A DNA stretch of 21,823 nt from positions 1-21,823 of IMG/VR virus record IMGVR_UViG_3300021389_000179. One strand, written 5' to 3'. The position numbers and the translations under genes are program-made. Positions 3,811 to 18,163 of this stretch are shown one piece after another. Source of the stretch: a virus. Below the pieces are notes generated by a model, which worked only from the letters and a program-made list of their open reading frames with translations, ran no database searches and had not been told where the DNA came from. The stretch's first letter is position 1. Each line of letters opens with the position of its first letter.

Positions 3811-3843
3811 TCTCCTTAAATAATGGGACGCCTTGCAAGGAGA
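3811..3843 (-). promoter_or_regulatory. Shine-Dalgarno of the 92-aa gene with complementary upstream loop sequence
   Basis: On the minus strand the SD of the gene starting at 3806 reads TAAGGAGA (3818-3811). The loop of the hairpin just upstream contains TCTCCTTG (3843-3836). These pair over eight positions, seven Watson-Crick plus one G-U. If the hairpin forms, loop-to-SD pairing would make an H-type pseudoknot that hides the ribosome site. If it does not form, a simple stem could do the same. This is a structural possibility read from the sequence and is untested. Confidence 0.4.
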
Positions 3844-3861
3844 GCTAAATCAAGACGCCCC
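3825..3861 (-). terminator. Strong hairpin after the major capsid gene, probable (partial) terminator
   Basis: On the minus strand GGGGCGTCTTG (3861-3851) pairs along all 11 positions, with two G-U pairs, with CAAGGCGTCCC (3835-3825). The loop is 15 bases. The hairpin begins eight bases after the capsid stop codon and is followed by ATTATTTAA, a weak U-tract. The position matches the terminator after gene 10 in T7, which lowers transcription beyond the most highly needed capsid gene. The weak U-tract suggests partial termination or 3'-end protection of the capsid message rather than a full stop. Confidence 0.6.
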
Positions 3862-3869
3862 ATAATTAA

Positions 3870-4799
3870 TTAAGCTAAGTCGTAAATATAACCGGATAAG
3901 TTATAGTTAGCGTGCTTTAAGCCATATTCAGTTACCAATGCGTGGGTATCTGCATCACCTGTCTTAGCAAGTAATTCTCTAGTCATTGGACGTAGTTCTG
4001 CTATTTTCCAATCTGAAGGATCATATAAGAATGCAACGTCAGGTCTCATAAACCTATTCATTACAACTCTATATTCACCGTATGGAGAAATATATACATC
4101 AACAACGTTCACAAGAGTTCTACCACCGTTTGAAAAGTGCTCTTGTCTAGCGTTTCCACTTCCAACTGCTGATCGAGTATATCCAGCAATAACAGTTGAG
4201 TCAGCAGGCTTAATCATAAGGATAGATGCTTCTGCACCATCATCATAAAGAGCATCACCTAGAGACAATATATTAGCCTCAGATAGTGTTGCTGAAGTAC
4301 CTGCATCAACTTTATTTGCAATCATTGCATTTGAAGCTGCATCATTACCCCAACAGTTAGCAGTAAATCTTGCAGTAGTAGCGTTACCGACTGCAGCGTT
4401 ATTACCACCAGTTGCTCTATTACCTACCAAGTTGAATTCTATATCTCGTTTGAATTCTGCTGCTTTCTTTGAAAGTTGATAGGCTGTCTCTTTGGCCCTT
4501 CCGTATGCATCGACTGCATCTGAAGTTGCTGAGACTTTAATAGTATGAGATTGAATCTGAGTATAATTTGATCTCATAGTAGTTGGTGTTAATGTAGCGT
4601 CAGAAAAGTCAGCTCCCTCAACTCTTGCATTTTCTGCAGTTGAAGCTAGTGAATCTTCTTGCCATTGAAACAAAGTATTACTTACGCTTTCTTTACCAAT
4701 TGATGATTGGAAAGGTGTCGCGGTTGGAGAAATATTAGAGATAATATCTGAAATATCTTCCTTTATACCTACTTCTTGGTAGGTTTGCCATGTAGCCAT
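3870..4799 (-). CDS. Major capsid protein (SU10 / DUF5309-like, HK97 fold)
   Basis: A 309-aa protein. Residues about 12-36 read KEDISDIISNISPTATPFQS, followed by NTLFQWQEDSL and an EGADF segment. This is the characteristic N-terminal signature of the SU10-type (DUF5309) major capsid family, which adopts the HK97 fold and builds the icosahedral shell. The centre has a conserved R-x-x-E-F-K-R-D-I-E helix (spine-like) and the C-terminal half has DVYISPYGEYRVVMNRFM and a closing ELLAKTGDADTHALVTEYGL, also typical of the family. It follows the scaffold gene, as usual. The SD GAGAAGGA lies about 8 bases upstream of the ATG. A short compact hairpin follows the stop. No separate capsid protease gene was seen. 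Confidence 0.88.
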   Translation of the reverse strand: MATWQTYQEVGIKEDISDIISNISPTATPFQSSIGKESVSNTLFQWQEDSLASTAENARVEGADFSDATLTPTTMRSNYTQIQSHTIKVSATSDAVDAYGRAKETAYQLSKKAAEFKRDIEFNLVGNRATGGNNAAVGNATTARFTANCWGNDAASNAMIANKVDAGTSATLSEANILSLGDALYDDGAEASILMIKPADSTVIAGYTRSAVGSGNARQEHFSNGGRTLVNVVDVYISPYGEYRVVMNRFMRPDVAFLYDPSDWKIAELRPMTRELLAKTGDADTHALVTEYGLKHANYNLSGYIYDLA

Positions 4800-4832: not shown

Positions 4833-5879
4833 TTATTTTTGCCACTTTGATAGAAAAGCATTTGTTGCATCATCGGTAGATCCTGATCTATGTAATTTAT
4901 CCATAGCGTCACTTTGTCTTTTTTTAGCTGTGGTTGGATTACTAGTACCTGATTTTAAAACTCGTTTTTGTTTCCTCACAACTCTTTTTTGTGTGGCAAC
5001 TTTTTTACCTTGATCGTATCTCATAGCTTTAATCATCATTTCTATAGCTGTAGGTTCGACAATAGTATCGACAACTTCAGCTGTTAAACCTTGATTAATA
5101 GCGTATGATCTAACATCACTGTATAAGTTTTGAGACCAATCAGGAACTCGTTCTTGGAGTACCTTTATAGTTTTTGATGCTTCTTCTTGAAGTCTTTTAT
5201 GATAGTCATTTTTTACTTGTTGAGCATACTTAGATGCTTCTTGAGTAAAAAAATCTAAATCTTCTTTAGCCATTTGAGACTCTCGTCTTAATTGCATAAA
5301 GTCATCATCACTCATAGTTTTTGCAGCCACTAACATGTCGACTTCTGCGTATGGCTTATAACGATCCTGAGCTTTTTCCATAAGCTTTTGTAAGGACGCT
5401 TCGTATTGTAATGATTTGTCTTCAAGTGCTTTTCGTTGAGTAGCAACTTCTTGCGATTTTATTGTTAGAGATTTTTCTTGACCATGTAATCGTTTAAGAT
5501 CTTTAACAGATACTTCTAACTCGTCATTTCCTACTTTAACTTTTGTAACCATATTATCTTCAGCAATAATAGCTTTAGGTGTTTCCTCGTCGACAATAGT
5601 TTCATTGCCATCTTCGTCAACTTCAACAGTTACATATTCGTATTGATCTGAGTCTTCTTCTTTAAGGTCTGCTTTTTCTTCTTTAACTTCTTCTTGATCA
5701 GGCGCTTCTTCTGCTGCTCTAACTTCATCAACAGGTTTAGCGTCGTCTTTAGTCTCGTTTTCTTCTGGCTTTTCAGCGGATTCCCACTGAGACATAAAGG
5801 CATTTTCTGCTTCTTCGGACGAACCAAAAGAAGCATCAAAAGGTGATTTTTCAGCAGACGCATTTGTAGTCTCTGACAT
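4833..5879 (-). CDS. Scaffolding protein
   Basis: A 348-aa, strongly charged protein directly upstream of the capsid gene, the usual place for the scaffold that directs procapsid assembly and then leaves. Residues about 1-105 are very acidic and low in complexity (long Glu/Asp/Lys runs). Residues about 110-260 are predicted-helical and coiled-coil-like with many Gln/Lys/Glu. The C-terminal 60 residues are basic (KKVATQKRVVRKQKRVLK), like the coat-binding end of other scaffolds. A near-duplicate peptide (NAFMSQW near residue 26, NAFLSKW near residue 340) stands at both ends. The SD GAGGAA lies in the last codons of the gene before. Confidence 0.8.
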   Translation of the reverse strand: MSETTNASAEKSPFDASFGSSEEAENAFMSQWESAEKPEENETKDDAKPVDEVRAAEEAPDQEEVKEEKADLKEEDSDQYEYVTVEVDEDGNETIVDEETPKAIIAEDNMVTKVKVGNDELEVSVKDLKRLHGQEKSLTIKSQEVATQRKALEDKSLQYEASLQKLMEKAQDRYKPYAEVDMLVAAKTMSDDDFMQLRRESQMAKEDLDFFTQEASKYAQQVKNDYHKRLQEEASKTIKVLQERVPDWSQNLYSDVRSYAINQGLTAEVVDTIVEPTAIEMMIKAMRYDQGKKVATQKRVVRKQKRVLKSGTSNPTTAKKRQSDAMDKLHRSGSTDDATNAFLSKWQK

Positions 5880-6151: not shown

Positions 6152-8179
6152 TTAGGAATTAGGACTTACAATACCTGTAGTCTGTTCCTTAGGTTGCGAT
6201 TTAAGTAACTTCAACTCTTCGTAAGCAACATCTGCTTTAGTTTCAGAGTCAAAATCTTTTCTTTCAGCTTCAACACTCATATTAGCTATTTCTGCTTCTG
6301 ACTTAGCTATTTCTAATTCCATACGGAATTTAGCTTCCTCAGTATCAAGTGCTAATCTTTGTTCTTGAACTGCTATTTTACGTTCTTCCATCTCCATTTG
6401 CTTCATAGCAATTTGCTGTTGCATTTGCTCTTGAGCCGATGGTTGTGGAGGTTGTACTTTTTCTGGTGGTATTAAGTATGTATCAACATCTTTAATACCT
6501 TGAGCTAACAATGATTGACGAACCATATTGTATCGTTCTTTCATACCATAATTAGATTGTAATCCTGGATCTTGTGATAACTGAGCGTGTATAGTATTAT
6601 ACTTAACTGCTTCTCTTTCAGTTTCTCCGTAACCTAATTTAAATGCTACTTCAACATCTTGTCTATGGTGCCATTGGTTTGGAGTAACTTGAGCGTACGC
6701 TCCTGCAACATCTATAATCTTTTGATTATCTTCATGAATTATACAAAGTCTATATATTTCAAGAAACAAAGGTTTTAAGAAATTATTTGCGAAGTTTCTT
6801 GCAATGATCTTGGAACGTTGTTGTGAAAGATTAACGAGTTGCTCAACCATTCCTTGTGAATTTTGATTAGATATGGCGTCTTTGTTGAGACCTTGCGAGA
6901 GCTTTGAAATGCCGCTAGTATTTTCACCATCTTCTTCCAACTTTTGAACGGTTTGAAATATGAATGGGTTAAGTGGGTTCTGAGGTAAGGGTGATACACC
7001 GTCAGGGCGAGTGACATTAACAATGCCTCCTAATCTATTGTCGAGTAATTCTCTAGGGTTTAATAATGATCCTTTAGTTACTAAGTAACGAGGATTTGTA
7101 GTAACAGAACTATGATCTAATATTGATCTCATTAAGACTGTTCTAGCATTTTGAGTAGGCAATAATTTGTAAGCAAAATTTTCACCATGAAACCTATGTG
7201 CTACAGGTATTGGTGTAAATACTATAAATGGTCTTCTATCAACTTCCTCATATTCAAGAAGTGTATTACCAGCTATTAGTATTTTATATAGTTTACTAAT
7301 ACCTTCGCCTTCCATATCAGCTTCTACGTATGCTTCATAAACAACAATTTCTTTCATTTGTTCTTGTCTATGATGCTCATCTAAATTTACAGAAGTAGGA
7401 CCAATTTGTTCATGACGATAATATTTTTCATCATAATTTTTACCTAATGGATCTTCGTCTGATCCTATACCTTCAATTAAATCTTCATCAAAACCCATTT
7501 TTATTAAATCAGTTTTACGCATAGATTTTCTATGAGCTACAAAACCATCTTCAATATTTTTACTCATTGGATTTATAATAAATTCTTCAGGTGGAATTAC
7601 ATCTATTACAACTTTGCTGTTGTCTGTACTTTTAATAAACGTACCACTAAACTTTCCATCTTTTTCGGTAAATTTACCTAATTCCATAGATGGATCGACA
7701 AGAGCTTGATCTAGTTCTTCAGAAGTGTAACCTTTAAACTCTTCTTCTATTTCATCAAGTTTTTCTTCCCAATAAACTTTTACAATACCTGTACGAGACA
7801 TAAGTCCGTCATGCATGACATCTCTCATAATCGAAAAGCCATCATTTTGTCTGTGTAATACGTAATTTGTGTATGCAGTACAAACTCTTGACATTTCAAC
7901 GTCTTCAGGACCTTGAGGTGTAAATTCAATTACGTCTGTACCAGCTGAAAACGTTTCTAAAAGTAATGCTTTTAAACCTTCAACTCCGTCATAAACATCT
8001 TGAGATACATAACTGCTGTTACCATTAGATTGTCTTTTAGGAAGTTCTCCGTGATAATAGCGCATTATTTTTTCGCGCTCATTACTTAAATCACTATCAG
8101 AATATCCTATAGAACCTTTGATTTCATCTTTGCAAAGTGCAACAAGTTCATCTTCTGATAATGCTTCAAAATCTGCCAT
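6152..8179 (-). CDS. Portal protein (P22-like)
   Basis: A 675-aa protein that forms the dodecameric ring at the packaging vertex. The N-terminus carries SNEREKIMRYYHGELPKRQSN and SSYVSQDVYDGVEGLKALL, the hallmark start of P22-like portals with the S-x-x-V-S-x-D-V-x-x-x-V-E motif. A central part includes VAHRFHGENFAYKLLPTQNA and NPLNPFIFQTVQKLEE, the stem and crown region. Residues about 571-675 are Pro/Gln-rich, then a long charged helix resembling the barrel extension of the P22 portal (725 aa). The start ATG overlaps the terminase stop codon by one base (TGATG) and has GGAGG seven bases upstream, so expression is coupled to terminase. Confidence 0.9.
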   Translation of the reverse strand: MADFEALSEDELVALCKDEIKGSIGYSDSDLSNEREKIMRYYHGELPKRQSNGNSSYVSQDVYDGVEGLKALLLETFSAGTDVIEFTPQGPEDVEMSRVCTAYTNYVLHRQNDGFSIMRDVMHDGLMSRTGIVKVYWEEKLDEIEEEFKGYTSEELDQALVDPSMELGKFTEKDGKFSGTFIKSTDNSKVVIDVIPPEEFIINPMSKNIEDGFVAHRKSMRKTDLIKMGFDEDLIEGIGSDEDPLGKNYDEKYYRHEQIGPTSVNLDEHHRQEQMKEIVVYEAYVEADMEGEGISKLYKILIAGNTLLEYEEVDRRPFIVFTPIPVAHRFHGENFAYKLLPTQNARTVLMRSILDHSSVTTNPRYLVTKGSLLNPRELLDNRLGGIVNVTRPDGVSPLPQNPLNPFIFQTVQKLEEDGENTSGISKLSQGLNKDAISNQNSQGMVEQLVNLSQQRSKIIARNFANNFLKPLFLEIYRLCIIHEDNQKIIDVAGAYAQVTPNQWHHRQDVEVAFKLGYGETEREAVKYNTIHAQLSQDPGLQSNYGMKERYNMVRQSLLAQGIKDVDTYLIPPEKVQPPQPSAQEQMQQQIAMKQMEMEERKIAVQEQRLALDTEEAKFRMELEIAKSEAEIANMSVEAERKDFDSETKADVAYEELKLLKSQPKEQTTGIVSPNS

Positions 8180-9750
8180 CAGATCGCCTCCGAATAAAAG
8201 TTATTATTAATTTCTGTTGGTTTCCAACCTTGTTGGTGACCATAATTTGCTAATGCTAAAGCCATTACACAATCATCAAAACAACCACTTTCAGCTTCCA
8301 TAGCTCCAGTTTCTGTTTCAATATATGTTAGTAATTCTCTAAGAGTTACTTTGTCATTAATTGTCATCTCATTTAATCTTAAAGATGCTCTTAATTCATT
8401 TATAACTAATGGTTTAGATTTAGCTGTCGTTTGAAAACCTAGTTTAGTCATTTCTTTGTCGCTCATTTTGTCTACTACAATTTCAATATGAAAATTTGTA
8501 TATTCAAAATCTTTATATAAACGAGTACATGTTAGTAATCCGTGTGAATTACTTTCAACAATTATGTATGCGTTATTAAAAAATTCGCCTAAGTGATATA
8601 AAATTGTAGCAAAGTAATCAGGGTGAACATGTGCTCTATACGTTCCTACTAAATTTTTATTTTCATCTAGTATTTGAGCTACAGAATAATCTCCACCTCT
8701 AATGCCCATAGCAACATCGGCACCTATTGTATAAATACCTGCAGGATCAACATCTTTGTATAAAACTAATTCACCTCTTGGGTGAACATTCCATGTTTCT
8801 TCTTCTAATGCTAATCGTTGCTTTACTGGTTCTGATTTATCAATCATTTCCATAATTTGGTCAGGATTAAAAATAGGTCTACCAGATGTCAAAAATGCTT
8901 CATCAGCGTTTGCTGGATATTCTTGTCTGAATAAGTCAATACCGTTTTGAGCTATTTTTTTACGTCTAAATGCTAATTGGTCATCTGTTAAATTATGTTC
9001 TTTTTTAAGTTCTAATTCATCAGGTGTGTAATCCATATTTTCTGGTGCTTGTTCAGCATATTCATCTTGAATAAACCAAGGTAAAAATACTGGAATAAAA
9101 CCATTAGTGCCTTCAATAGCACCTCTCCATAAATCATAAAATTTACCTGAAACACCATTAGCCGTAGACTCTATAAATACAGCAGTATTATCTTTATTTG
9201 GTACTGCTTGCATAATAGCATTAAAGTTTTCTTCAGCCGTCGATGGAGACCAGAAAGCTAATTCTGATAAATGACAAACTGTAATAGTTTCTCCTCGTGC
9301 AATTGAGTCACCACCTGCAGTAGCAACAACATAAGAACTATCAAGAAAGTTAAAGTTTATTTCTTTTCTTGATGAGTACTTTGTGTGAGGTTTAACTGGT
9401 TCAGGACAGTTATCGTGGTATCTTCTTGTCATATCAAATAAAGCTCTTGTAGAGTCAGCATGATGTGTAACAACCATACCTCTTTGTGCTTTACGTTGTG
9501 ATAGCCACCAATATAACCAACCACCTACCATAGTAGATAATCCCATTTGACGAGCTTTAAGAATTATAACACGAATTTTGCCTTCTTTTTCATATTGAGT
9601 ATTTATGATATTTAGTAATTGTGATTGTGCGATATTGGGTTTTAAATTTACAACATCACCATCTTTAGTACGTATTTTTAAACAGTTTTTAGAATAAAAT
9701 TCAAAATTATCCCTCAATTGCTTTCGTATCGTCAATGCTTTTTGGTTCAT
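8179..9750 (-). CDS. terL: Terminase large subunit
   Basis: A 523-aa packaging motor with ATPase and nuclease. Residues 65-73 (KARQMGLST) are the Walker A variant typical of this terminase group. Residues 157-167 (TVCHLSELAFW) are Walker B with S162-E163 in place of the usual DE. ESTANG (194-199) is the coupling motif. The RNase H-like nuclease follows, with D345 in GADVAMG, E399 in VESNSHG and D492-D493 in the final DDCVMALAL motif. The length is normal. The start at ATG 9750 lies 44 bases inside the probable small-subunit gene and has no clear SD, so it is probably translated by coupling. The stop overlaps the portal start by one base. Confidence 0.93.
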   Translation of the reverse strand: MNQKALTIRKQLRDNFEFYSKNCLKIRTKDGDVVNLKPNIAQSQLLNIINTQYEKEGKIRVIILKARQMGLSTMVGGWLYWWLSQRKAQRGMVVTHHADSTRALFDMTRRYHDNCPEPVKPHTKYSSRKEINFNFLDSSYVVATAGGDSIARGETITVCHLSELAFWSPSTAEENFNAIMQAVPNKDNTAVFIESTANGVSGKFYDLWRGAIEGTNGFIPVFLPWFIQDEYAEQAPENMDYTPDELELKKEHNLTDDQLAFRRKKIAQNGIDLFRQEYPANADEAFLTSGRPIFNPDQIMEMIDKSEPVKQRLALEEETWNVHPRGELVLYKDVDPAGIYTIGADVAMGIRGGDYSVAQILDENKNLVGTYRAHVHPDYFATILYHLGEFFNNAYIIVESNSHGLLTCTRLYKDFEYTNFHIEIVVDKMSDKEMTKLGFQTTAKSKPLVINELRASLRLNEMTINDKVTLRELLTYIETETGAMEAESGCFDDCVMALALANYGHQQGWKPTEINNNFYSEAI

Positions 9751-10441: not shown

Positions 10442-13400
10442 TTAAGACAAGGCATAGTAGTTTATGCCTGAATTATTGCTAAACGTAGCGTCTTTCATTT
10501 GTCTAATAAGATTAAGAATTTCTGATAAAGACATTTCTTGCTTTACCGAACCTTCTTCAGATTGAACATTGTACTTTACAGTTACTGAATCAGGATCAAT
10601 TCCATTAGCTTTAACTACTTCTTCATAAATTGGAGAAGAAGCAATCTCTAATAAAATTTCATGATATATTTCTCTCATTTCTTGACCATGAACCGGGTGT
10701 GTAGCAAATGCATCATGTGTATGCATAAAGCCTGGAACACCACGATCTCGTAATCTTTTAGCTAACGCTCTTTGTACGTAAGCATCTAATGAGTGATTTA
10801 AGAAAGCTGCAAAACCAGTAATTGCAAGTTTATCTTGATATACTGGAACACCTATCTTTTTATCTTTACCAATTTCCCAATTAACTCTTCGTTTTGTACT
10901 ATCAGGTAATTTACCAGTATATACAGAAACGTCACCGTCAGGTAATGGAACACGAACTGCAAAATTATCTTTACCATATAAATCAAACATAGTTGAAGCT
11001 ATAGCTTTTGCTATTCCTTCAGCCATTGCAGCACCAGGATAATTTTGATCAAAAATTAACTCTAATTTATTTTGAATATTTTTAAGAGTTTCTTTTTGTT
11101 CAGGATCTTTCATGTCATTAAACTGTTCAGGTAATTGTTTAGCTAATTCGTCAAACCCTGCACCTCTAGCAGTTATTTTTACTTGTCCATATGATCTTCT
11201 ATTAGCTAAGAATTTCTTTGCTACTTTACGAGATTTAGTTGCACCTAAACCAGTTACTTCTTGTATATGATCTGCAGGAAGTCTGTATAAATCTCCTCCA
11301 GGTGCATCAGGATCCATGCTAAGTAAATTAGCTACTTGAGATAGTCCTGGGTCTCCTGTAAGTGCGGCGTGTAACTGATATGCCGAAGAAGTACCATCAA
11401 ACCATACTGGATAAGCTGAATTAAAGCCTTGAAGTAAGTTTATTGCTTCTTCATTTTGAAATAATTCACTTGTAGGTATTTTCTTAAATGAAGCGTCTTT
11501 ACCTTCTAAAAATGCTCTCATTCTTCCAATTTCTACAGCTAATCTTTGTATTTCAAAACCGTGATCTGATACATCAAAAACAGCATGATTTTTCTGATAA
11601 ATAGTTTTTGCATCTCTTTTATCGTTAAAAATCATTGGAGCACCACCTCGCTGATAAGCGAAGATGTTGCCACCTTTCATTTTTGAACCTGCAACCAAGT
11701 AATCAATTAAAGGCATATTAAGATCTTCATCATTTAAAAATTCTGATCTAGGTCTTCCTGCTAAGTCCATGTATTGCTGAACTGTACCAAATAAAATTCC
11801 TGCTCTTTGGTTGTATGGAATTTCATTACCTATACCTAAATGATCTCTAATAGAGTGTAAGAAACTTTCAAAACCAGTTGCGCCTAATGGTCTCCAGTTT
11901 GGAAATTCCCATATTGCTTTACCGGCTTTACCTTGGTATGAAGCAGAACCATTTAATGTATCTATACGTAATCTATCTTGAGCGCGTCTAAGCATATAAA
12001 CTGGAGACATACCACCTTTATCAGTTTGGTTATCTTCATATTGTTTTAATGCTTCTGCAGCAGCCAACGTATATGCACTATCAGTAGTTCCATCTTTTTT
12101 AAAGACTAAATCTAATCCTCTATAATGCCTTGGTTTAGTCATCATGCCCGCAAGTAATTTGTATATCATGTCGTTTATAACTAGAGGCTGTTGTTGCTCT
12201 CTTTCTATAAATTCAACAGTATTGTCGTAACTTCCTAATGGGTGACCATTTATTTTTGGCTTTTCTGTACGAGGTTCTTTTGTAGCTCTGTTAACGTATT
12301 TACGAGCATTATTTTGATCGGCTTTATTTTTCAAAGCAGAGTCTTTTGGCTCTACCGTATAAATTGGATACATTACACCGCCAGCACTTGTTCTAAATGC
12401 AACTTCAAAATCACTTATTGCACCACTTTCTTGTAATGCTTTCATTATAATTAAAAAGTTTTCGCGATGAGGAGCTAATGCTTCTTCAACTTCATTGCCT
12501 TCTTTGGTTTCAACTAAATCAACAATACGACCGTTTGGTTCCATTAAATCAATAGCTTTAAGATAAGCAACAGCTAACATAGAAACGTCTGTATCAGGTG
12601 TTATTTGACCTAAAATAGCTTTTAAAGTATTAGCATTAATACCTTCTATATCTAAGTTATTAGCAAGATTTTCTATTTTTTCATTAAATGCTGCATCAAT
12701 AACTTCTCTATTTTTTTCTATTTCAATAGCATTTTTTTGAATTTTATCTAAATCTTCTCTACGCTTTTTAAGCATAGGACTTCCGTGCTTTACTTTAGCA
12801 AACTGAGTAGTTGGAACCATCATTTCAGCATATTCTTCATTTATGCCTTGTTGATATGTTTTACCTGTGTAGATGTTATCTAAAACACTATTAACAGTCA
12901 TAAAACCATCACCTTTAAGTAATGACAAAAACCTTTCAATAAGGTCTTTAATTTTACCTAAAATATACTTTGGTCCAACTTCGTTATATCTTGCATTCTC
13001 AAGTCTAGCCGACATCTCAGCTAATACTTCCATTTCTTGAGCAATCGAAGATAATTCAGGATATAACTCCTGCACTTCTTTTTTAACAGTATCGTATAAA
13101 GGGTGAGACTTAAGTTTGTCCATTTCAGCTTTACTTAAACGATCTTCAACTGCATGAAATATTTCGTGAAGAACAGTAGTTTTATCAGCATCTTTAGTAA
13201 GATTAATTAACTGCTGTCTTCTTATAAAAGAGTTTTGAGATGAATTATAATTAACCTTAAAACCTTCAGTTAAAGCTCTAGCAATTAAAGCAGCTTTATC
13301 TTTGTCTGATAATTTATTATTAGGTTTAAATAATGATCTAGTTCTAACTGTATCATAAGCTTGATTAATAGCTTCTGGTGCTACTTCGTATTGTACTAAT

Positions 13401-15685
13401 TGTGTAGCATTACCTTCCATAGTATTACGTTTAATTAAACCATTTTTAACTAATCTTTCAAAAACAGATCTTGGCCATATTGTAGTAGTTCTACCATTGT
13501 CAGGTTGACCTCTATAATCTTGAGCAAAACCATCAGCTTTTTCTGGTATTGCAGTCATAAAAGCAGAACCATTAAAGCCTTGTTGCTCTATTGTTTGAGC
13601 AGTATCTTTACTTGTTCCATGATGTAATATTTCTACACGCTCACCATAATAGTTTTCTGCTTCAGATTTTAATTCATTTACTGAAGGAAATCTTGACTCT
13701 TGCACAACTGACTCAGTATCGACTTCCTTAGGTCCAAACTGTGTCATAGGTTCTACTACTTGATCTAAAAATGTAGCATGCTCAGGATATTGCATTTTAG
13801 CTTGCTCAAACTTTGCTTTTTTAAGAGCAGGTGTTCTTTGATTTGCAATATCAAGTACAACCACTTTTAAAGCATCGTTGGGTGCAGCTTTAACAGCAGC
13901 ATTTGACATTTCAACTGCTCTATTTACAGCTTCTTTATATGCTAATGGATTTTTAACATAATCAGGAACACCGTTTGGATCTTGAGCAGTAGTTGTAGTA
14001 GTTTCTTTTTCTACTTTTTTCTTACCTTTAGCACCTCTTTTAGGTTTTTCTTTTGTAGGTTGTACAGGTATAACCGGAGTTATTGGAGTAGGTGTTGTAG
14101 GATTAACATTAACACTATTATCATTAGTAGGTTCTATATTAATTCCTGCAGCATTTTGATACTGCCTTATTGCTTTTGAAACTCTATTGCGAGATCCAGT
14201 TAAAGCATCAATAACTCGACCACCTGCAATAGTAGTAGCTGAAGCAATTGGATTCATATATGCTAACGCACCTGCACCTAATGCTCTTCCACTATTTATA
14301 TTTATACCTAGTTTGCCACGACCTAAATTAAGAGGATTAAAGTAATCAGTAAATTTAGATACACCGCCTTTAACACCTTCTTGCTTAAAACGAGTAATTA
14401 CGTTCAGTTTTCTTGCAAGAGCACCTATTTGAGGATCAGCATCTGTAAGTAATTTTATGTCATCTTTAGATGCTAAATTCTTTACTTTATTTTTTGCTCT
14501 TTTAAGTGCAACTTTTACTTTTGGATTATTTTTATTTAATTTCTTTTGTTTAACTAAAGCATCTATTTCAGCTTGGTACTGTGTATGTAAGTCATCTAAA
14601 TTTGCGTCTGCATCATCTAGTTTTTTATTGTTTCTATCTTGACCTTCAGATGTTTTTTCTAAATCTCTAACAACTTCAGCAGTAGCTTCTTCGTCAGCTT
14701 TTACAATCTTTTTGTAACCACTAGGAAAAGCATCAATAGCTGCGTTGGTACCTTTAACAGTTTCAACAATAGTTTGAGCACCACCTCTAGTTCCACCACC
14801 ACCGGCAGCACCTGCAAAAAATGACTCTTTTAAATTTCTTTTAACTTCGTCAGCAGTATAGTCTTTACCTAAATTGGCAGCAGTACCCATTTTAATTATA
14901 TCTTGACCTACTTCGGTTAAACCTTCAGCGGCTGCAGCTTTTGTAAATGCAGTAGCAATACGACCAAAACCATTAGCAGTAAGCCATGATGAAATACCTT
15001 TAGCACCAGAGCTTTTGACAGCACTTGGTATAAGTTTCATTACAAAACCGGCACCAATATTTTCAAGAACACCCATAAGTATTCCTGCACCACCTGCTTC
15101 AGATACTTTAGTAGCTTGGTCTACACCTTCTATATCTTTTACTTCTTGAAATGCTTCACCTGACATTAATGCAGCAGAAGAACCTGGAACAGGAGCAACA
15201 GCTGTCATCATATATGGTAATGACTCAGCCATTTTTTGTGCACCATACTGAATACCTGATCCAATACCTGTAACGTCATCTGTAGTTAGTGATTTATAGT
15301 TTAAAGCATCAGCTTTTTTATTTAACATTTCTGCAGTAGCAAATTTATCTTGAGCTGCTTTATCAGACATTGCATTTTGATTTAAAGGATCAAAGCCAAA
15401 AAATTCTCTAACAGGATTACCTATATTTTCTTGTAAATAACGTTGGGAGTCTCCTACAAATGAATCATTAATAACTTGCTCTAAATTACCTGCATATTCT
15501 TGAGTATTAGCCATTGATTTAAGATCACCGTGCTGAAATGCAGTAGACAAACTAGTGTCTTTTGGAGACATAGATTGGACTATTTCTTCAACGGTCTTTT
15601 GTTGGTCTGCAGTTGATAATTTTTTGAATTTTTCATCAACTTCAACAGTACCATAGCCATCGATTTCAAGCTCGATCATAGCCAT
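10442..15685 (-). CDS. Giant ejected virion protein with T7/N4-like RNA polymerase, ART-like and HExxH domains
   Basis: About 1,747 aa, counted from the ATG at 15685, which has GGAG six bases upstream. An in-frame ATG at 15697 lacks an SD. Order of parts: residues 1-40, the small MIELEIDGYGTVEV domain seen at the start of large phage virion proteins; 150-300, Gly/Ala-rich hydrophobic stretches; 529-561, a Pro/Lys-rich linker; about 675-760, HHGTS...GF.GS, like ADP-ribosyltransferase folds; 840-844, HEIFH with E886 or E890 as possible third zinc ligand; about 1165-1747, a single-subunit RNA polymerase with a motif T-like D1237-R1240, motif A D1430-G-T-S-S..Q, motif B K1491 and Y1499-G, H1631 in NHSLDAY and motif C H1657-D1658 in HDAFAT. 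It lies after two ejection-type genes, where T7 has gp16. A virion RNA polymerase like N4 gp50 is the likely role. The catalytic residues appear intact. Confidence 0.85.
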   Translation of the reverse strand: MAMIELEIDGYGTVEVDEKFKKLSTADQQKTVEEIVQSMSPKDTSLSTAFQHGDLKSMANTQEYAGNLEQVINDSFVGDSQRYLQENIGNPVREFFGFDPLNQNAMSDKAAQDKFATAEMLNKKADALNYKSLTTDDVTGIGSGIQYGAQKMAESLPYMMTAVAPVPGSSAALMSGEAFQEVKDIEGVDQATKVSEAGGAGILMGVLENIGAGFVMKLIPSAVKSSGAKGISSWLTANGFGRIATAFTKAAAAEGLTEVGQDIIKMGTAANLGKDYTADEVKRNLKESFFAGAAGGGGTRGGAQTIVETVKGTNAAIDAFPSGYKKIVKADEEATAEVVRDLEKTSEGQDRNNKKLDDADANLDDLHTQYQAEIDALVKQKKLNKNNPKVKVALKRAKNKVKNLASKDDIKLLTDADPQIGALARKLNVITRFKQEGVKGGVSKFTDYFNPLNLGRGKLGININSGRALGAGALAYMNPIASATTIAGGRVIDALTGSRNRVSKAIRQYQNAAGINIEPTNDNSVNVNPTTPTPITPVIPVQPTKEKPKRGAKGKKKVEKETTTTTAQDPNGVPDYVKNPLAYKEAVNRAVEMSNAAVKAAPNDALKVVVLDIANQRTPALKKAKFEQAKMQYPEHATFLDQVVEPMTQFGPKEVDTESVVQESRFPSVNELKSEAENYYGERVEILHHGTSKDTAQTIEQQGFNGSAFMTAIPEKADGFAQDYRGQPDNGRTTTIWPRSVFERLVKNGLIKRNTMEGNATQLVQYEVAPEAINQAYDTVRTRSLFKPNNKLSDKDKAALIARALTEGFKVNYNSSQNSFIRRQQLINLTKDADKTTVLHEIFHAVEDRLSKAEMDKLKSHPLYDTVKKEVQELYPELSSIAQEMEVLAEMSARLENARYNEVGPKYILGKIKDLIERFLSLLKGDGFMTVNSVLDNIYTGKTYQQGINEEYAEMMVPTTQFAKVKHGSPMLKKRREDLDKIQKNAIEIEKNREVIDAAFNEKIENLANNLDIEGINANTLKAILGQITPDTDVSMLAVAYLKAIDLMEPNGRIVDLVETKEGNEVEEALAPHRENFLIIMKALQESGAISDFEVAFRTSAGGVMYPIYTVEPKDSALKNKADQNNARKYVNRATKEPRTEKPKINGHPLGSYDNTVEFIEREQQQPLVINDMIYKLLAGMMTKPRHYRGLDLVFKKDGTTDSAYTLAAAEALKQYEDNQTDKGGMSPVYMLRRAQDRLRIDTLNGSASYQGKAGKAIWEFPNWRPLGATGFESFLHSIRDHLGIGNEIPYNQRAGILFGTVQQYMDLAGRPRSEFLNDEDLNMPLIDYLVAGSKMKGGNIFAYQRGGAPMIFNDKRDAKTIYQKNHAVFDVSDHGFEIQRLAVEIGRMRAFLEGKDASFKKIPTSELFQNEEAINLLQGFNSAYPVWFDGTSSAYQLHAALTGDPGLSQVANLLSMDPDAPGGDLYRLPADHIQEVTGLGATKSRKVAKKFLANRRSYGQVKITARGAGFDELAKQLPEQFNDMKDPEQKETLKNIQNKLELIFDQNYPGAAMAEGIAKAIASTMFDLYGKDNFAVRVPLPDGDVSVYTGKLPDSTKRRVNWEIGKDKKIGVPVYQDKLAITGFAAFLNHSLDAYVQRALAKRLRDRGVPGFMHTHDAFATHPVHGQEMREIYHEILLEIASSPIYEEVVKANGIDPDSVTVKYNVQSEEGSVKQEMSLSEILNLIRQMKDATFSNNSGINYYALS

Positions 15686-15706
15686 AGGCGTCTCCATAGA
15701 TTTTAT

Positions 15707-17029
15707 TTAATTTTGATTTTTTATTCTGAAATTTATGCCAGTAGAGGCTTTACCACCAACAGATCTATTACCTGATACATTTGATGAACCAGTTTTTTCA
15801 GTTTCTGCATATAGATTTGCAAGCATATTTTCCATTTGCTTAATTTCACCAGAATAATCTACTTTATAACCTGCTAAAGTTTTGTTTTCTTTAAAATGAT
15901 CTGCTTTAGCTTTATTTAACTCAATTAATTTACGAGCTACTAAACCTGCCATTTTTAAACGTTTAGCATTTACTTGAGGTTTTAATGCTGGGTTATAAGA
16001 ACGTGAAATCAATCTAAATGCTTCTGTTTGAGTAAACTGAGCACCTAAAGTTTCTCTTAATGATTGCTGAACAATACCTTCAATACGTTGTTGTATATCT
16101 AAACCTTTTTGACCAAAGATTTTTCTTAAACCTAAGTCACCATCAGGATCTACAATAGCTTGTGTTCTTTCCCACCAACTATCAATATCACCACCAGTAC
16201 TAAGTTCGTTTGCAATACCATCTAAAACTGCTACGTTAGCTGCAGCTTGCGCAGGACGTTGCTTTTCATATTGTGTAGCATACGCTTTATCACGAGAAAT
16301 TTCACCAGAGTTTAAGTATCTGTATTTTCCTGTTTCTTTATCAAAGATAACATCTTTTTTACCTTTAATATCAATACCTGTAGCTTTTCTTTTAAGTTTA
16401 TCAAGCACTGCTTTTTCTTTAGCTTTGAGAGCAGAGTTGTAATAGTTGTAGCGTGGATCGCCAGGGAAAATAGTTTCTGGGTTACCCATTTGATCCATAA
16501 CTTCAATTGATTTATTAACCGTACCTTCAGGTTGGCCAACAGTGTAATTAAAGTTACTACCAATGAGTGCATTTTTTTCAGTAAGCTGATCTTGTTTAGT
16601 ATTGTACTGATCTTTGAGAAAATCAAACTTGTCTGTTGACAAAGTATTTGTAAAGTTTTGCTGATCAAGATTTTGTTTATCAAGTTTGTTTTGCCTCTTA
16701 TCTTGTTGAAGTTGTCTAAACCTATTTCTAATATCTGATGTACGATTAGTTCTAGTTTGGGTTAATTGGTTCCATAATTGACCTTGCTGAGATGGTGCTG
16801 CACCTGCAGCTCTGAACGCAGCTCCAAGATCGCTTAATTTTTGAGAAAAAGAAGGCTTATTATATTGCTCATACATTTTTAACATTGCATTTTGGTCGTG
16901 CATATTAGACATCATGCTTTGAGGTGAATTAGGAGGAAGCATGTTGTTGTTACCCATGCCTAAATTTGGATCGGGATTAATTTGTGGCCCACTATTGTCG
17001 AATAAACCACCTTCAAATAATTTACCCAT
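15707..17029 (-). CDS. Probable internal virion / DNA-ejection protein
   Basis: A 440-aa protein. Residues 1-45 are Asn/Met/Pro/Gly-rich and flexible. Residues 55-80 carry FSQKLSDLGAAFRAAG. Residues 90-150 are a very Gln/Arg/Lys-rich helix. Residues about 320-370 contain QQSLRETLGAQFTQTEAFRL and the RSYNPAL segment, a signature I know from podovirus ejection and structural proteins. The gene lies between another ejection-type gene and the polymerase-bearing giant gene, the position of T7 gp15. Its ATG directly follows the previous stop codon (TAAATG) with GGAGG in the last codons, so translation is coupled. A role in the ejectosome that moves DNA into the host is inferred from synteny. Confidence 0.7.
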   Translation of the reverse strand: MGKLFEGGLFDNSGPQINPDPNLGMGNNNMLPPNSPQSMMSNMHDQNAMLKMYEQYNKPSFSQKLSDLGAAFRAAGAAPSQQGQLWNQLTQTRTNRTSDIRNRFRQLQQDKRQNKLDKQNLDQQNFTNTLSTDKFDFLKDQYNTKQDQLTEKNALIGSNFNYTVGQPEGTVNKSIEVMDQMGNPETIFPGDPRYNYYNSALKAKEKAVLDKLKRKATGIDIKGKKDVIFDKETGKYRYLNSGEISRDKAYATQYEKQRPAQAAANVAVLDGIANELSTGGDIDSWWERTQAIVDPDGDLGLRKIFGQKGLDIQQRIEGIVQQSLRETLGAQFTQTEAFRLISRSYNPALKPQVNAKRLKMAGLVARKLIELNKAKADHFKENKTLAGYKVDYSGEIKQMENMLANLYAETEKTGSSNVSGNRSVGGKASTGINFRIKNQN

Positions 17030-18163
17030 TTACGCCTCCACCAATTTATCCATGATTTTTTCAAGAAACTTTTTAGTTCTTGGTTTATTGCTAATGAAAG
17101 CTGCGAACCTTTGACCAAATTTCCAGTAAAGTCTATTCAACCACCAAGGTGCTCTTTCAACCATATATTCTCTAAACTCAAGCCACTTAGGATTTTCAGG
17201 TCCATATACTTCTCTAGCAACCCAGCAGAACATTGAAGCAATACCAATAATATTACCTATATTTTGCATTGTTGATGGGTTTTCTTGTGATGTGCCTGAT
17301 GTACTTCCACCGAAACCTTGGTTACCTGAAGCAAGCTGCATCATTTGCTGAAGTTGGTTCATAGGAACATTAAACTGATCATAAAATGCCTTTTGATTTG
17401 CGTCCATCTGACCTTGATTATTCATTTGGCCTAAAGTACCAAACTTATTAAGCATGTTGATACCTTGAGAGTCCATATTCATACCGGTACCAAGATTTGC
17501 AATACTATTATTAAAAGCATTAGACATACCACCTAAAGCACTCATACCTTGACCAAAGTTGGTATTATATTGGTTTACACCTTGGTTAAACATTGAGTTT
17601 CTAATATCTGCAGATACATCAGCAGCTCTATCTTCGGCACCTCTCATAAGCATAGCATCTTGCATACCTGCTCGGTTTGAGTTCATATTACCTGTTGCTG
17701 CATATCCTCTATTTGCAGAAGGAAGAGCATTTTCATATAAATTTCTGCCAATATCTCTTGTAGAAGCATTAATCATGTTATTAGCCATATCACTATTAGC
17801 TAATTGATTTCCCATGTTAAATGCACCAAACGGATTTTGGGTCATTGAAAACATATTTGCAAAGCCTTTACCAAAGTCTCCGGTATTAGCTAAATTATTC
17901 AAAGAAGCTGCATTTACTGCATTAGCATTACTAGAAGCATTATTTGCATAATTACCTGCACCTGTTTGAGCCGCATTTTGATAATCAGTAAAACCGGCAA
18001 AAGTTGGTCCTGAATATACTCCAGCATCTATTGCATTTTGACCAAAATTTAAACCTTGATTAGACGCATAATCTAATAGTGGTTGAGCCATTTTAAATGC
18101 AGCATCAGCGTTAGGGTCATTTCTAGTTGTATTGGTCTTTGGACCTTTAAATAAGCTACCCAT
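17030..18163 (-). CDS. Probable internal virion protein with C-terminal CWVAREVYG domain
   Basis: A 377-aa protein. Residues 1-310 are unusually rich in Asn, Gly, Ala, Met and Gln, with a RAGMQDAMLMRGAEDRAADV helix in the middle, a composition typical of ejection proteins that must unfold to pass the tail. Residues 313-377 form a compact domain that starts CWVAREVYG, continues NPKWLEFREYM and RFAAFISNKPR and ends basic. This domain recurs at the C-termini of phage virion proteins; its function is unknown to me. The position corresponds to T7 gp14. The start has GGGAG upstream inside the last codons of the gene before, with a three-base gap. Confidence 0.7.
   Translation of the reverse strand: MGSLFKGPKTNTTRNDPNADAAFKMAQPLLDYASNQGLNFGQNAIDAGVYSGPTFAGFTDYQNAAQTGAGNYANNASSNANAVNAASLNNLANTGDFGKGFANMFSMTQNPFGAFNMGNQLANSDMANNMINASTRDIGRNLYENALPSANRGYAATGNMNSNRAGMQDAMLMRGAEDRAADVSADIRNSMFNQGVNQYNTNFGQGMSALGGMSNAFNNSIANLGTGMNMDSQGINMLNKFGTLGQMNNQGQMDANQKAFYDQFNVPMNQLQQMMQLASGNQGFGGSTSGTSQENPSTMQNIGNIIGIASMFCWVAREVYGPENPKWLEFREYMVERAPWWLNRLYWKFGQRFAAFISNKPRTKKFLEKIMDKLVEA

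Follow-up and report, generated by a model that had tools for sequence, protein, structure and literature searches.

Can a phage that is not N4-like carry its own RNA polymerase into the bacterium? A virion-carried single-subunit RNA polymerase (RNAP) has so far been tied to N4-like phages, and the RNAP of T7 is not known to be a virion protein. The question is raised by the 21,823-base virus record IMGVR_UViG_3300021389_000179 (the window, to the whole of which all coordinates refer), in which one gene encodes a protein that runs from a moderately hydrophobic N-terminal stretch through an ADP-ribosyltransferase (ART)-like region and a zincin-like HEXXH region to a C-terminal single-subunit RNAP. 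An earlier reading of the window's letters (the original prediction) had proposed such an RNAP at the end of an ejection-type protein in a phage unlike N4, and sequence, profile and fold tests agree with it. It gave the protein 1,747 residues; the residues it picked out are correct but the length is not, since the first ATG gives 1,751. Its count would correspond to initiation at Met5, which makes its residue numbers four too low. The reading that we favour, with a probability of roughly 0.7, is that the fused RNAP would be ejected and read a promoter-like element (motif L) at entry, and that a cascade would follow via a second, free polymerase (RNAP1); the analysis establishes the fold, the active-site residues, purifying selection, the fusion, the gene order, the lack of cysteine, the second RNAP and both promoter-like motifs, and from these we infer packaging, activity, order and promoter assignment.

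The fusion protein terminates in a genuine single-subunit RNAP domain with predicted activity. Pfam RNA_pol matches the C-terminal part (E 5.3e-10, 39 bits against a curated cut-off of 22), and two PHROG RNAP families match the protein (E 6e-11 and 2e-10; 43 and 40 bits), the better being phrog_2051, the family of N4 gp16 (gp16 itself scores 573 bits), which RNAP1 matches too. In an automatic profile alignment to eight T7-like RNAPs, made with no hand fitting, the domain's D, Y, R, K, Y, H, H and D fall under T7 D537, Y571, R627, K631, Y639, H784, H811 and D812. All eight residues are invariant in the 20 rows of alignment A1, which holds the window and 19 of 22 relative loci (the incomplete L006 was omitted, as were L003 and L004, which hardly differ from the window), and the motif A, B, C and histidine residues named by the original prediction stand once renumbered by four. 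The placement of the T7 R425 and K472 equivalents shifts with the alignment option and is unreliable. The protein ends in YALS, overlooked by the original prediction and shared with the terminus of N4 gp16, where T7 RNAP ends in FAFA. At one relative locus the first stretch (L011:16-66) gives a translation foreign to the family, which suggests an adapter or an artefact of assembly.

The polymerase end is also under purifying selection. Its dN/dS is 0.025–0.151 across seven pairs (three dS values exceed 1), against 0.160 for residues 1–1155 in one pair. Identity to distant loci is 61–63% in the RNAP end and 40–46% in residues 560–1000, and to the nearer locus L046 80% and 61%. It is therefore very improbable that the domain is a dead remnant with a structural role only: a single-sequence search of the PDB did return just one weak match, N4 RNAPII at E 0.32, but the low dN/dS and the invariance of both the active-site residues and YALS in all 20 rows argue for a working enzyme.

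A structural match to T7 RNAP, among the checks named by the original prediction, was found at the level of the fold, with T7-type palm and fingers recovered from an AlphaFold model of residues 786–1751 (24 sequences; pLDDT 61.8, pTM 0.56). Foldseek finds 21 matches in the PDB at E <= 0.001, every one of them a T7 or mitochondrial RNAP (best 1.6e-7), with low TM-scores of 0.28–0.39; rank 22 is the N4 mini-virion RNAP at E 0.032. VIA-align places yeast mitochondrial RNAP first (Z 17.4, 507 residues aligned, root-mean-square deviation (rmsd) 7.6), followed by N4 RNAPII 6dt7_B (Z 15.9, 319 of 404, rmsd 4.4) and T7 1h38 (Z 15.8, 510 aligned, rmsd 11.2), with N4 virion RNAP (vRNAP) 2po4 at Z 10.0 (520 aligned, rmsd 7.2) and DNA polymerase I at about 9.

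Which polymerase is it related to? From its sequence, the fused domain appears closer to T7 RNAP and N4 RNAPII than to N4 vRNAP, with N4 RNAPII as its favoured sister group. Compared by hhalign, A1 matches the N4 RNAPII family (seven sequences) at E 3e-9, T7-like RNAPs (eight) at 5.5e-9 and N4 vRNAPs (eight, in a trimmed profile) at 0.59. Control comparisons gave 2e-10 for T7-like against vRNAP, 3e-27 for RNAPII against T7-like and 0.06 for RNAPII against vRNAP, and because this last control also fails, the weak vRNAP score is no proof of non-kinship. A tree of 31 sequences (174 columns) splits the fused domains and N4 RNAPII from T7-like RNAPs and vRNAPs with 99/98 support (SH-aLRT/bootstrap); for this tree, motif C of the RNAPII rows had to be positioned by hand, since the automatic alignment had missed it.

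These comparisons bear on whether the protein is a diverged N4 gp50 that came from a phage of the Schitoviridae. The two chains alike lack cysteine and combine an RNAP with a zincin-like motif, N4-type vRNAPs can carry an ART (according to passages of PMC5512222), and the approximately unbiased (AU) test does not reject a grouping with vRNAP (p 0.098). Yet the hhalign scores favour the other two families, within the limit set by the failed control; N4 vRNAP aligns G and F at the T7 H784 and H811 positions, where the fused domain has H, although two of eight vRNAP rows carry H at the latter; the VIA Z is 10.0 against 15.9 for N4 RNAPII; and the domain order and the SU10-type portal differ. We regard descent from gp50 as distinctly improbable.

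Upstream of the polymerase, the HEXXH and the conserved pattern that follows it occur in 8/8 proteins and 10/10 alignment rows, and HGTS in nine of the ten (it is missing from L013). No Pfam match was obtained for the zincin-like region, which is defined at motif level only, and no Pfam PolyVal match anywhere in the fusion protein. An AlphaFold model of residues 560–1000 is weak (pLDDT 57, pTM 0.32); Foldseek finds nothing for it at E <= 0.001, and its two best rows are one protein of ADP-ribosyltransferase fold, CRM197 (E 0.0047 and 0.011). With a weak model, weak Foldseek rows and motif-level evidence, both labels are tentative. In polyvalent proteins (Iyer 2017) one injected chain holds several catalytic domains; here the RNAP is firm, the ART-like part has a weak fold match and the zincin-like part a motif. 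Profiles of the N-terminal and middle parts, compared with nine large phage proteins (including those of GAP52, HMO-2011, N4 gp50 and Y3), gave a best E of 0.0038 (middle part, Y3 ORF30), which we did not accept as a match.

The fusion protein is probably ejected into the bacterium along with the DNA. Its gene belongs to the late module's ejection block, after those of a 377-residue and a 440-residue protein, and the phrog_4287 match of the former bears out an ejection-type gene upstream, as the original prediction had it. None of 15 fusion-family sequences (11 of 1,715–1,937 residues and four partial) contains a cysteine, nor does any A1 row. Cysteine is likewise absent from N4 gp50, gp51 and gp52, from eight vRNAP stretches, from the three internal virion proteins of phiM5, recorded as detected in particles, and from GAP52 gp090, HMO gp22 and HTVC106P gp41. 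All 15 free single-subunit RNAPs compared have 6–19. From the late-module slot, the lack of cysteine and the promoter-like motif described below we infer packaging and early-gene transcription at entry. A late-made cytoplasmic polymerase for late genes, never packaged, would also have its gene in the late module and would fit the lack of a strong T7-type promoter motif (motif T, below) before late genes; this we consider improbable, given a family without cysteine like the N4 and phiM5 virion proteins and unlike every free RNAP compared, the fusion to ART-like and zincin-like parts, and a gene that follows a DNA ejection protein.

The remainder of the window's genome is represented here by G001 (L029, L030; 39,841 bases), which shares 99.9% identity with the window in the fusion protein. 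G001 encodes an integrase, a free 836-residue T7-like RNAP1 (phrog_414, 672 bits), a gp2.5-like single-stranded DNA-binding protein (SSB) and a thymidylate synthase, as well as a primase/helicase, a DNA polymerase, an exonuclease and a ribonucleotide reductase. With its T7-type replication module, free RNAP, SU10-type virion module and integrase, it is a chimeric and possibly temperate phage. An RNA_pol search of ten records detected the fused domain in all ten at E <= 0.001 and RNAP1 in six, including all five of 38.9–42.0 kb (185–337 bits; the sixth is cut by the contig end); the four records with no RNAP1 match are fragments of 17.9–22.5 kb. The original prediction had suggested a search for a second RNAP, and a free T7-like one is present in all five long related contigs. 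No relative that would point to a prophage or a host was found among the 84,980 species of genome_contigs, by protein or by exact motif L.

Two promoter-like motifs recur in these genomes. Motif T was built from eight T7-like seeds that match 13–17 of 23 positions of the T7 promoter consensus (random mean 7.4, maximum 13). At 17 bits or more, leave-one-out scans give 13 matches in five genomes, against 0–0.2 per genome after shuffling: five before the ribonucleotide reductase gene (G001) or the open reading frame (ORF) in the same place in others, four before RNAP1 (in G004 the RNAP1 start lies beyond the contig end), and one before the G001 integrase; of the remaining three, at least two fall inside ORFs. 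No copy at this threshold lies before late genes. At 15 bits or more, 27 of 28 loci have motif T 41–62 nucleotides ahead of RNAP1 (the sole miss being a 36% relative), compared with 5 of 400 random stretches, with seeds and near-identical contigs counted.

Motif L is a 34-nucleotide element, TTTCaaACGCAAATTT-tnncn-CTTtATGGACAAc, derived from a repeat in non-coding DNA (20 seed copies). Leaving out one genome at a time, scans at 12 bits or more give 8, 9, 10, 9 and 6 matches in G001 to G005 (shuffled means 0, 0, 0, 0 and 0.33), at least two of them inside genes (G001 29046, G003 35681). At 18 bits or more there are 34 copies, 24 of which are followed by a Shine-Dalgarno sequence and a start codon 21–32 nucleotides after the GG. 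The exact motif was found in 2.9 million IMG/VR contigs as 19 stretches on 17 contigs, each with at least five proteins of this phage group. Conservation continues through GGACAAC beyond the presumed start; the motif varies with lineage, since several copies in L033/L037 (G003, G004) read GGACTTA there instead. A diverged form lies 1.2–1.7 kb before RNAP1, ahead of an integrase-RNAP1 operon, in 18 of 21 loci (shuffled 0/60; seeds and near-identical contigs counted), with no good copy in L130, L131 and L135; it sits 47 (G001) and 52 nucleotides (G005) before a 274-residue ORF, the integrase in G001. In the same 18 loci (G001 ~3822-3890, L029) the diverged copy runs directly into a GC-rich terminator-like hairpin, CACTGGTCC...GGACCGGTG, followed by a T-run, a combination that is a possible attenuator or source of a short RNA ahead of the integrase. 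The original prediction had proposed a search for N4-like hairpin promoters in the early region; in motif L, the candidate early promoter, no hairpin excess was found (stems 3.58 versus 3.46 shuffled).

Two promoter classes and two RNAPs lead us to propose a cascade. Motif L is assigned to the fused RNAP by exclusion: motif T fits RNAP1, and motif L does not resemble sigma-70 promoters and keeps its conservation beyond the presumed start. Because exact motif L was found only in this group and both RNAPs are on all five long contigs, association alone cannot assign it. The fused polymerase could thus be real and packaged while the host RNAP, or RNAP1, reads motif L, with the fused enzyme serving mainly as a motor that pulls in the genome by transcribing it; the integrase-RNAP1 operon could then be started by any polymerase. 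This we hold to be unlikely, but it is the alternative that we take most seriously. Two motif L regions hold 19 and 11 sigma-70-like sites, against 13.1 ± 4.1 and 12.3 ± 3.7 after shuffling, which is no clear excess; conservation past the start site is a trait of single-subunit RNAP promoters, and RNAP1 has a T7-type motif of its own.

In the cascade that we favour, the phage would be short-tailed, combining an SU10/LUZ24-type virion with a T7-type replication module. The fusion protein would be the largest of its ejection proteins and the third in order, with an active polymerase on the T7/N4 RNAPII side as its C-terminal third. It would be made late, packaged, and expelled before the DNA together with the 377- and 440-residue proteins; the cysteine-free chain would unfold through the tail and refold in the cytoplasm. 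There the fused RNAP would transcribe early genes from motif L, starting at the GG, with copies preceding the small genes of a leftward cluster and the diverged form preceding the integrase-RNAP1 operon. RNAP1 would then take over from the motif T promoters that precede its gene and that of the ribonucleotide reductase, leading to replication.

Several observations weigh against this scheme. Among 36 RNAP1 loci no phage was found that has RNAP1 and lacks the fusion; 33 of these loci are at 57–100% identity and mostly fragments, and the other three, at 32–36%, are on contigs of 8–12 kb. Motif L could be read by the host RNAP or RNAP1, 10 of its 34 copies lack the start-codon spacing, and the RNAP domain was found in none of six further motif L records, all of them fragments (6.9–27.6 kb), two carrying the upstream part of the fusion gene. 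N4 RNAPII needs gp2 and, as proposed, a further factor on promoters (according to passages of PMC4496689). Cysteine is also absent from the scaffold (348 residues), a 316-residue late protein and the SSB (171 residues), none of them a known ejection protein, and the 377-residue ejection protein has one. The confidence of the polymerase model is modest, at the values given above, and the alignments are shallow (Neff 1.5); the AU test rejects a grouping of the fused domains neither with vRNAP nor with T7 RNAP (p 0.099 for the latter).

The features of the window are collected in Table 1. The SU10-type portal of the original prediction is well supported there. Between positions 9707 and 10253, just upstream of the terminase gene, two 172-residue ORFs on opposite strands overlap almost fully; the minus-strand one is in the small-terminase position and has no PHROG match.

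Table 1 Features of the fusion gene and its surroundings in the window
Feature	Position	Strand	Basis or remark
Fusion protein, 1,751 aa, 0 Cys	10442..15697	-	Length from first ATG
RNA polymerase domain (palm/fingers), residues ~1156-1751	10442..12232	-	Pfam RNA_pol, Foldseek, VIA
C-terminal YALS	10445..10456	-	Invariant in 20/20 rows; in place of T7 FAFA
Motif C HDAFAT, H1661-D1662 (T7 H811-D812)	10700..10717	-	A1 rows, profile alignment
NHSLDAYVQ, H1635 (T7 H784)	10772..10798	-	A1 rows, profile alignment
Motif B SRKVAKKFLANRRSYG, R1490, K1494-K1495, Y1503-G1504 (T7 R627, K631, Y639)	11186..11230	-	A1 rows, profile alignment
Motif A DGTSSAYQ, catalytic D1434 (T7 D537)	11375..11398	-	D invariant in 20/20 rows; profile alignment
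HEIFH zincin-like motif, residues 844-848	13154..13168	-	Followed by conserved E-x-(LM)AE-xx-AR pattern
ADP-ribosyltransferase-like region around HHGTS, residues ~688-786	13340..13636	-	HGTS rows, weak Foldseek match
Moderately hydrophobic segment, residues 205-224	15026..15085	-	Kyte-Doolittle peak 1.54
440-aa protein, second gene of block, 0 Cys	15707..17029	-	No family match
377-aa DNA ejection protein, one Cys	17030..18163	-	phrog_4287 E 1.8e-22
Terminase large subunit	8179..9750	-	phrog_2 E 1.2e-29
SU10-type portal	6152..8179	-	Pfam SU10_portal E 1.6e-169
Scaffolding protein	4833..5879	-	phrog_3927 E 7e-16
Major head protein	3870..4799	-	phrog_1328 E 7e-81

How far does this repeat a known system? 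The original prediction had likened it to N4: the logic holds, but the enzyme is closer to T7 RNAP and N4 RNAPII, the RNAP is C-terminal and not in the middle, and the candidate promoter shows no hairpin. N4 gp50 is likewise a cysteine-free, multi-domain single-subunit RNAP with a zincin-like part, one of three ejection proteins, that is ejected and starts early transcription (according to passages of PMC5512222 and PMC12633501), as we propose here. It differs in its 3,500 residues, its central RNAP (998–2103) and a zincin-like domain C-terminal to the RNAP (same passages of PMC5512222), whereas here HEXXH at 844 precedes it. Unlike N4 and the Schitoviridae, the present group has an SU10-type portal, related contigs of 39–42 kb with T7-type replication genes, and no visible promoter hairpin. 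N4 gp16, the large subunit of RNAPII, resembles the fused domain in its profile match, a similar motif A, the YALS end, VIA Z and phrog_2051, but is a free subunit with nine cysteines. With T7 and the Autographiviridae the likeness lies in the T7 active-site residues, and the phages of the present group also carry T7-type promoter motifs and the free RNAP1. The fused domain itself has diverged strongly and is a distinct enzyme.

Other phages offer partial parallels. Vibrio phage Peru-2 is a podophage with two T7-like RNAPs, and the available passages of PMC13320782 do not mention a fusion to a virion protein. In crAss001, gp47, gp49 and gp50 are RNAP-associated virion cargo (according to passages of PMC10172136), of the multi-subunit type, unlike here. 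GAP52 and HMO-2011 give weak or partial matches to the 377-residue protein, and their blocks end in a protein of 1,304 and 1,128 residues, respectively; since this has no Pfam match in either phage, the large last protein is present but the RNAP is not. The ejection proteins of phiM5, HTVC106P and Mvi-Yong1342-1 show no sequence similarity to those of the window. HTVC106P gp41 (L067:12592-15375; 927 residues) had a marginal vRNAP profile score in a ten-protein search (E 0.0024). Virion RNAPs beyond the N4-like phages have been claimed before. A putative vRNAP has been claimed for StenR_269/Zobellviridae from size, helicity and absence of cysteine (in passages of PMC10747016), and vB_PunP_Y3 ORF30 is described as a counterpart of the N4 virion RNAP (in passages of PMC11654794). 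We considered the StenR_269 protein (L147:36735-43547, OR838459; no cysteine) and ORF30 (L091:24147-34412, OR779980) as closest relatives and rejected both: neither shows an RNAP signal by Pfam or by the T7 and RNAPII profiles, which also miss N4 gp50. As these profiles find each other and the window, yet miss gp50, a distant vRNAP could be overlooked. Pfam matches in ORF30 are ddrB-ParB, ART-PolyVal, LPD1, LPD5 and a methyltransferase.

A tblastn search of 50,697 phage records with the whole protein gave nothing at E <= 1e-5. Searches with 596-residue C-terminal pieces at a threshold of E 10 matched 60 and 449 records, none over 80% of the query among the matches listed (40 each); the strongest of these (E 2e-5) is to an Alteromonas phage protein named 'RNA polymerase 2'. 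Among the matches listed from the open-access literature, none describes the fusion protein or the phage group.

These results suggest that the N4 strategy, in which the phage brings its transcription enzyme along, evolved anew in an uncultured phage group of another kind. A further-reaching reading, to which we give somewhat less than an even chance, is that an N4-like self-sufficient cascade was assembled a second time from other parts: an RNAPII-like polymerase would have been captured by an ejected polyvalent protein, all cysteines would have been lost, and a private, non-hairpin promoter (motif L) would switch on small takeover genes and, by way of a promoter that runs directly into a terminator hairpin, the T7-like RNAP1. 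A phage so equipped could begin infection without the host RNA polymerase. If true, this would be a second, differently built case in another virion type, which would mean that the strategy evolves repeatedly, and it would offer a new promoter–polymerase pair as well as a smaller system for studying how a polymerase threads through a tail and refolds.

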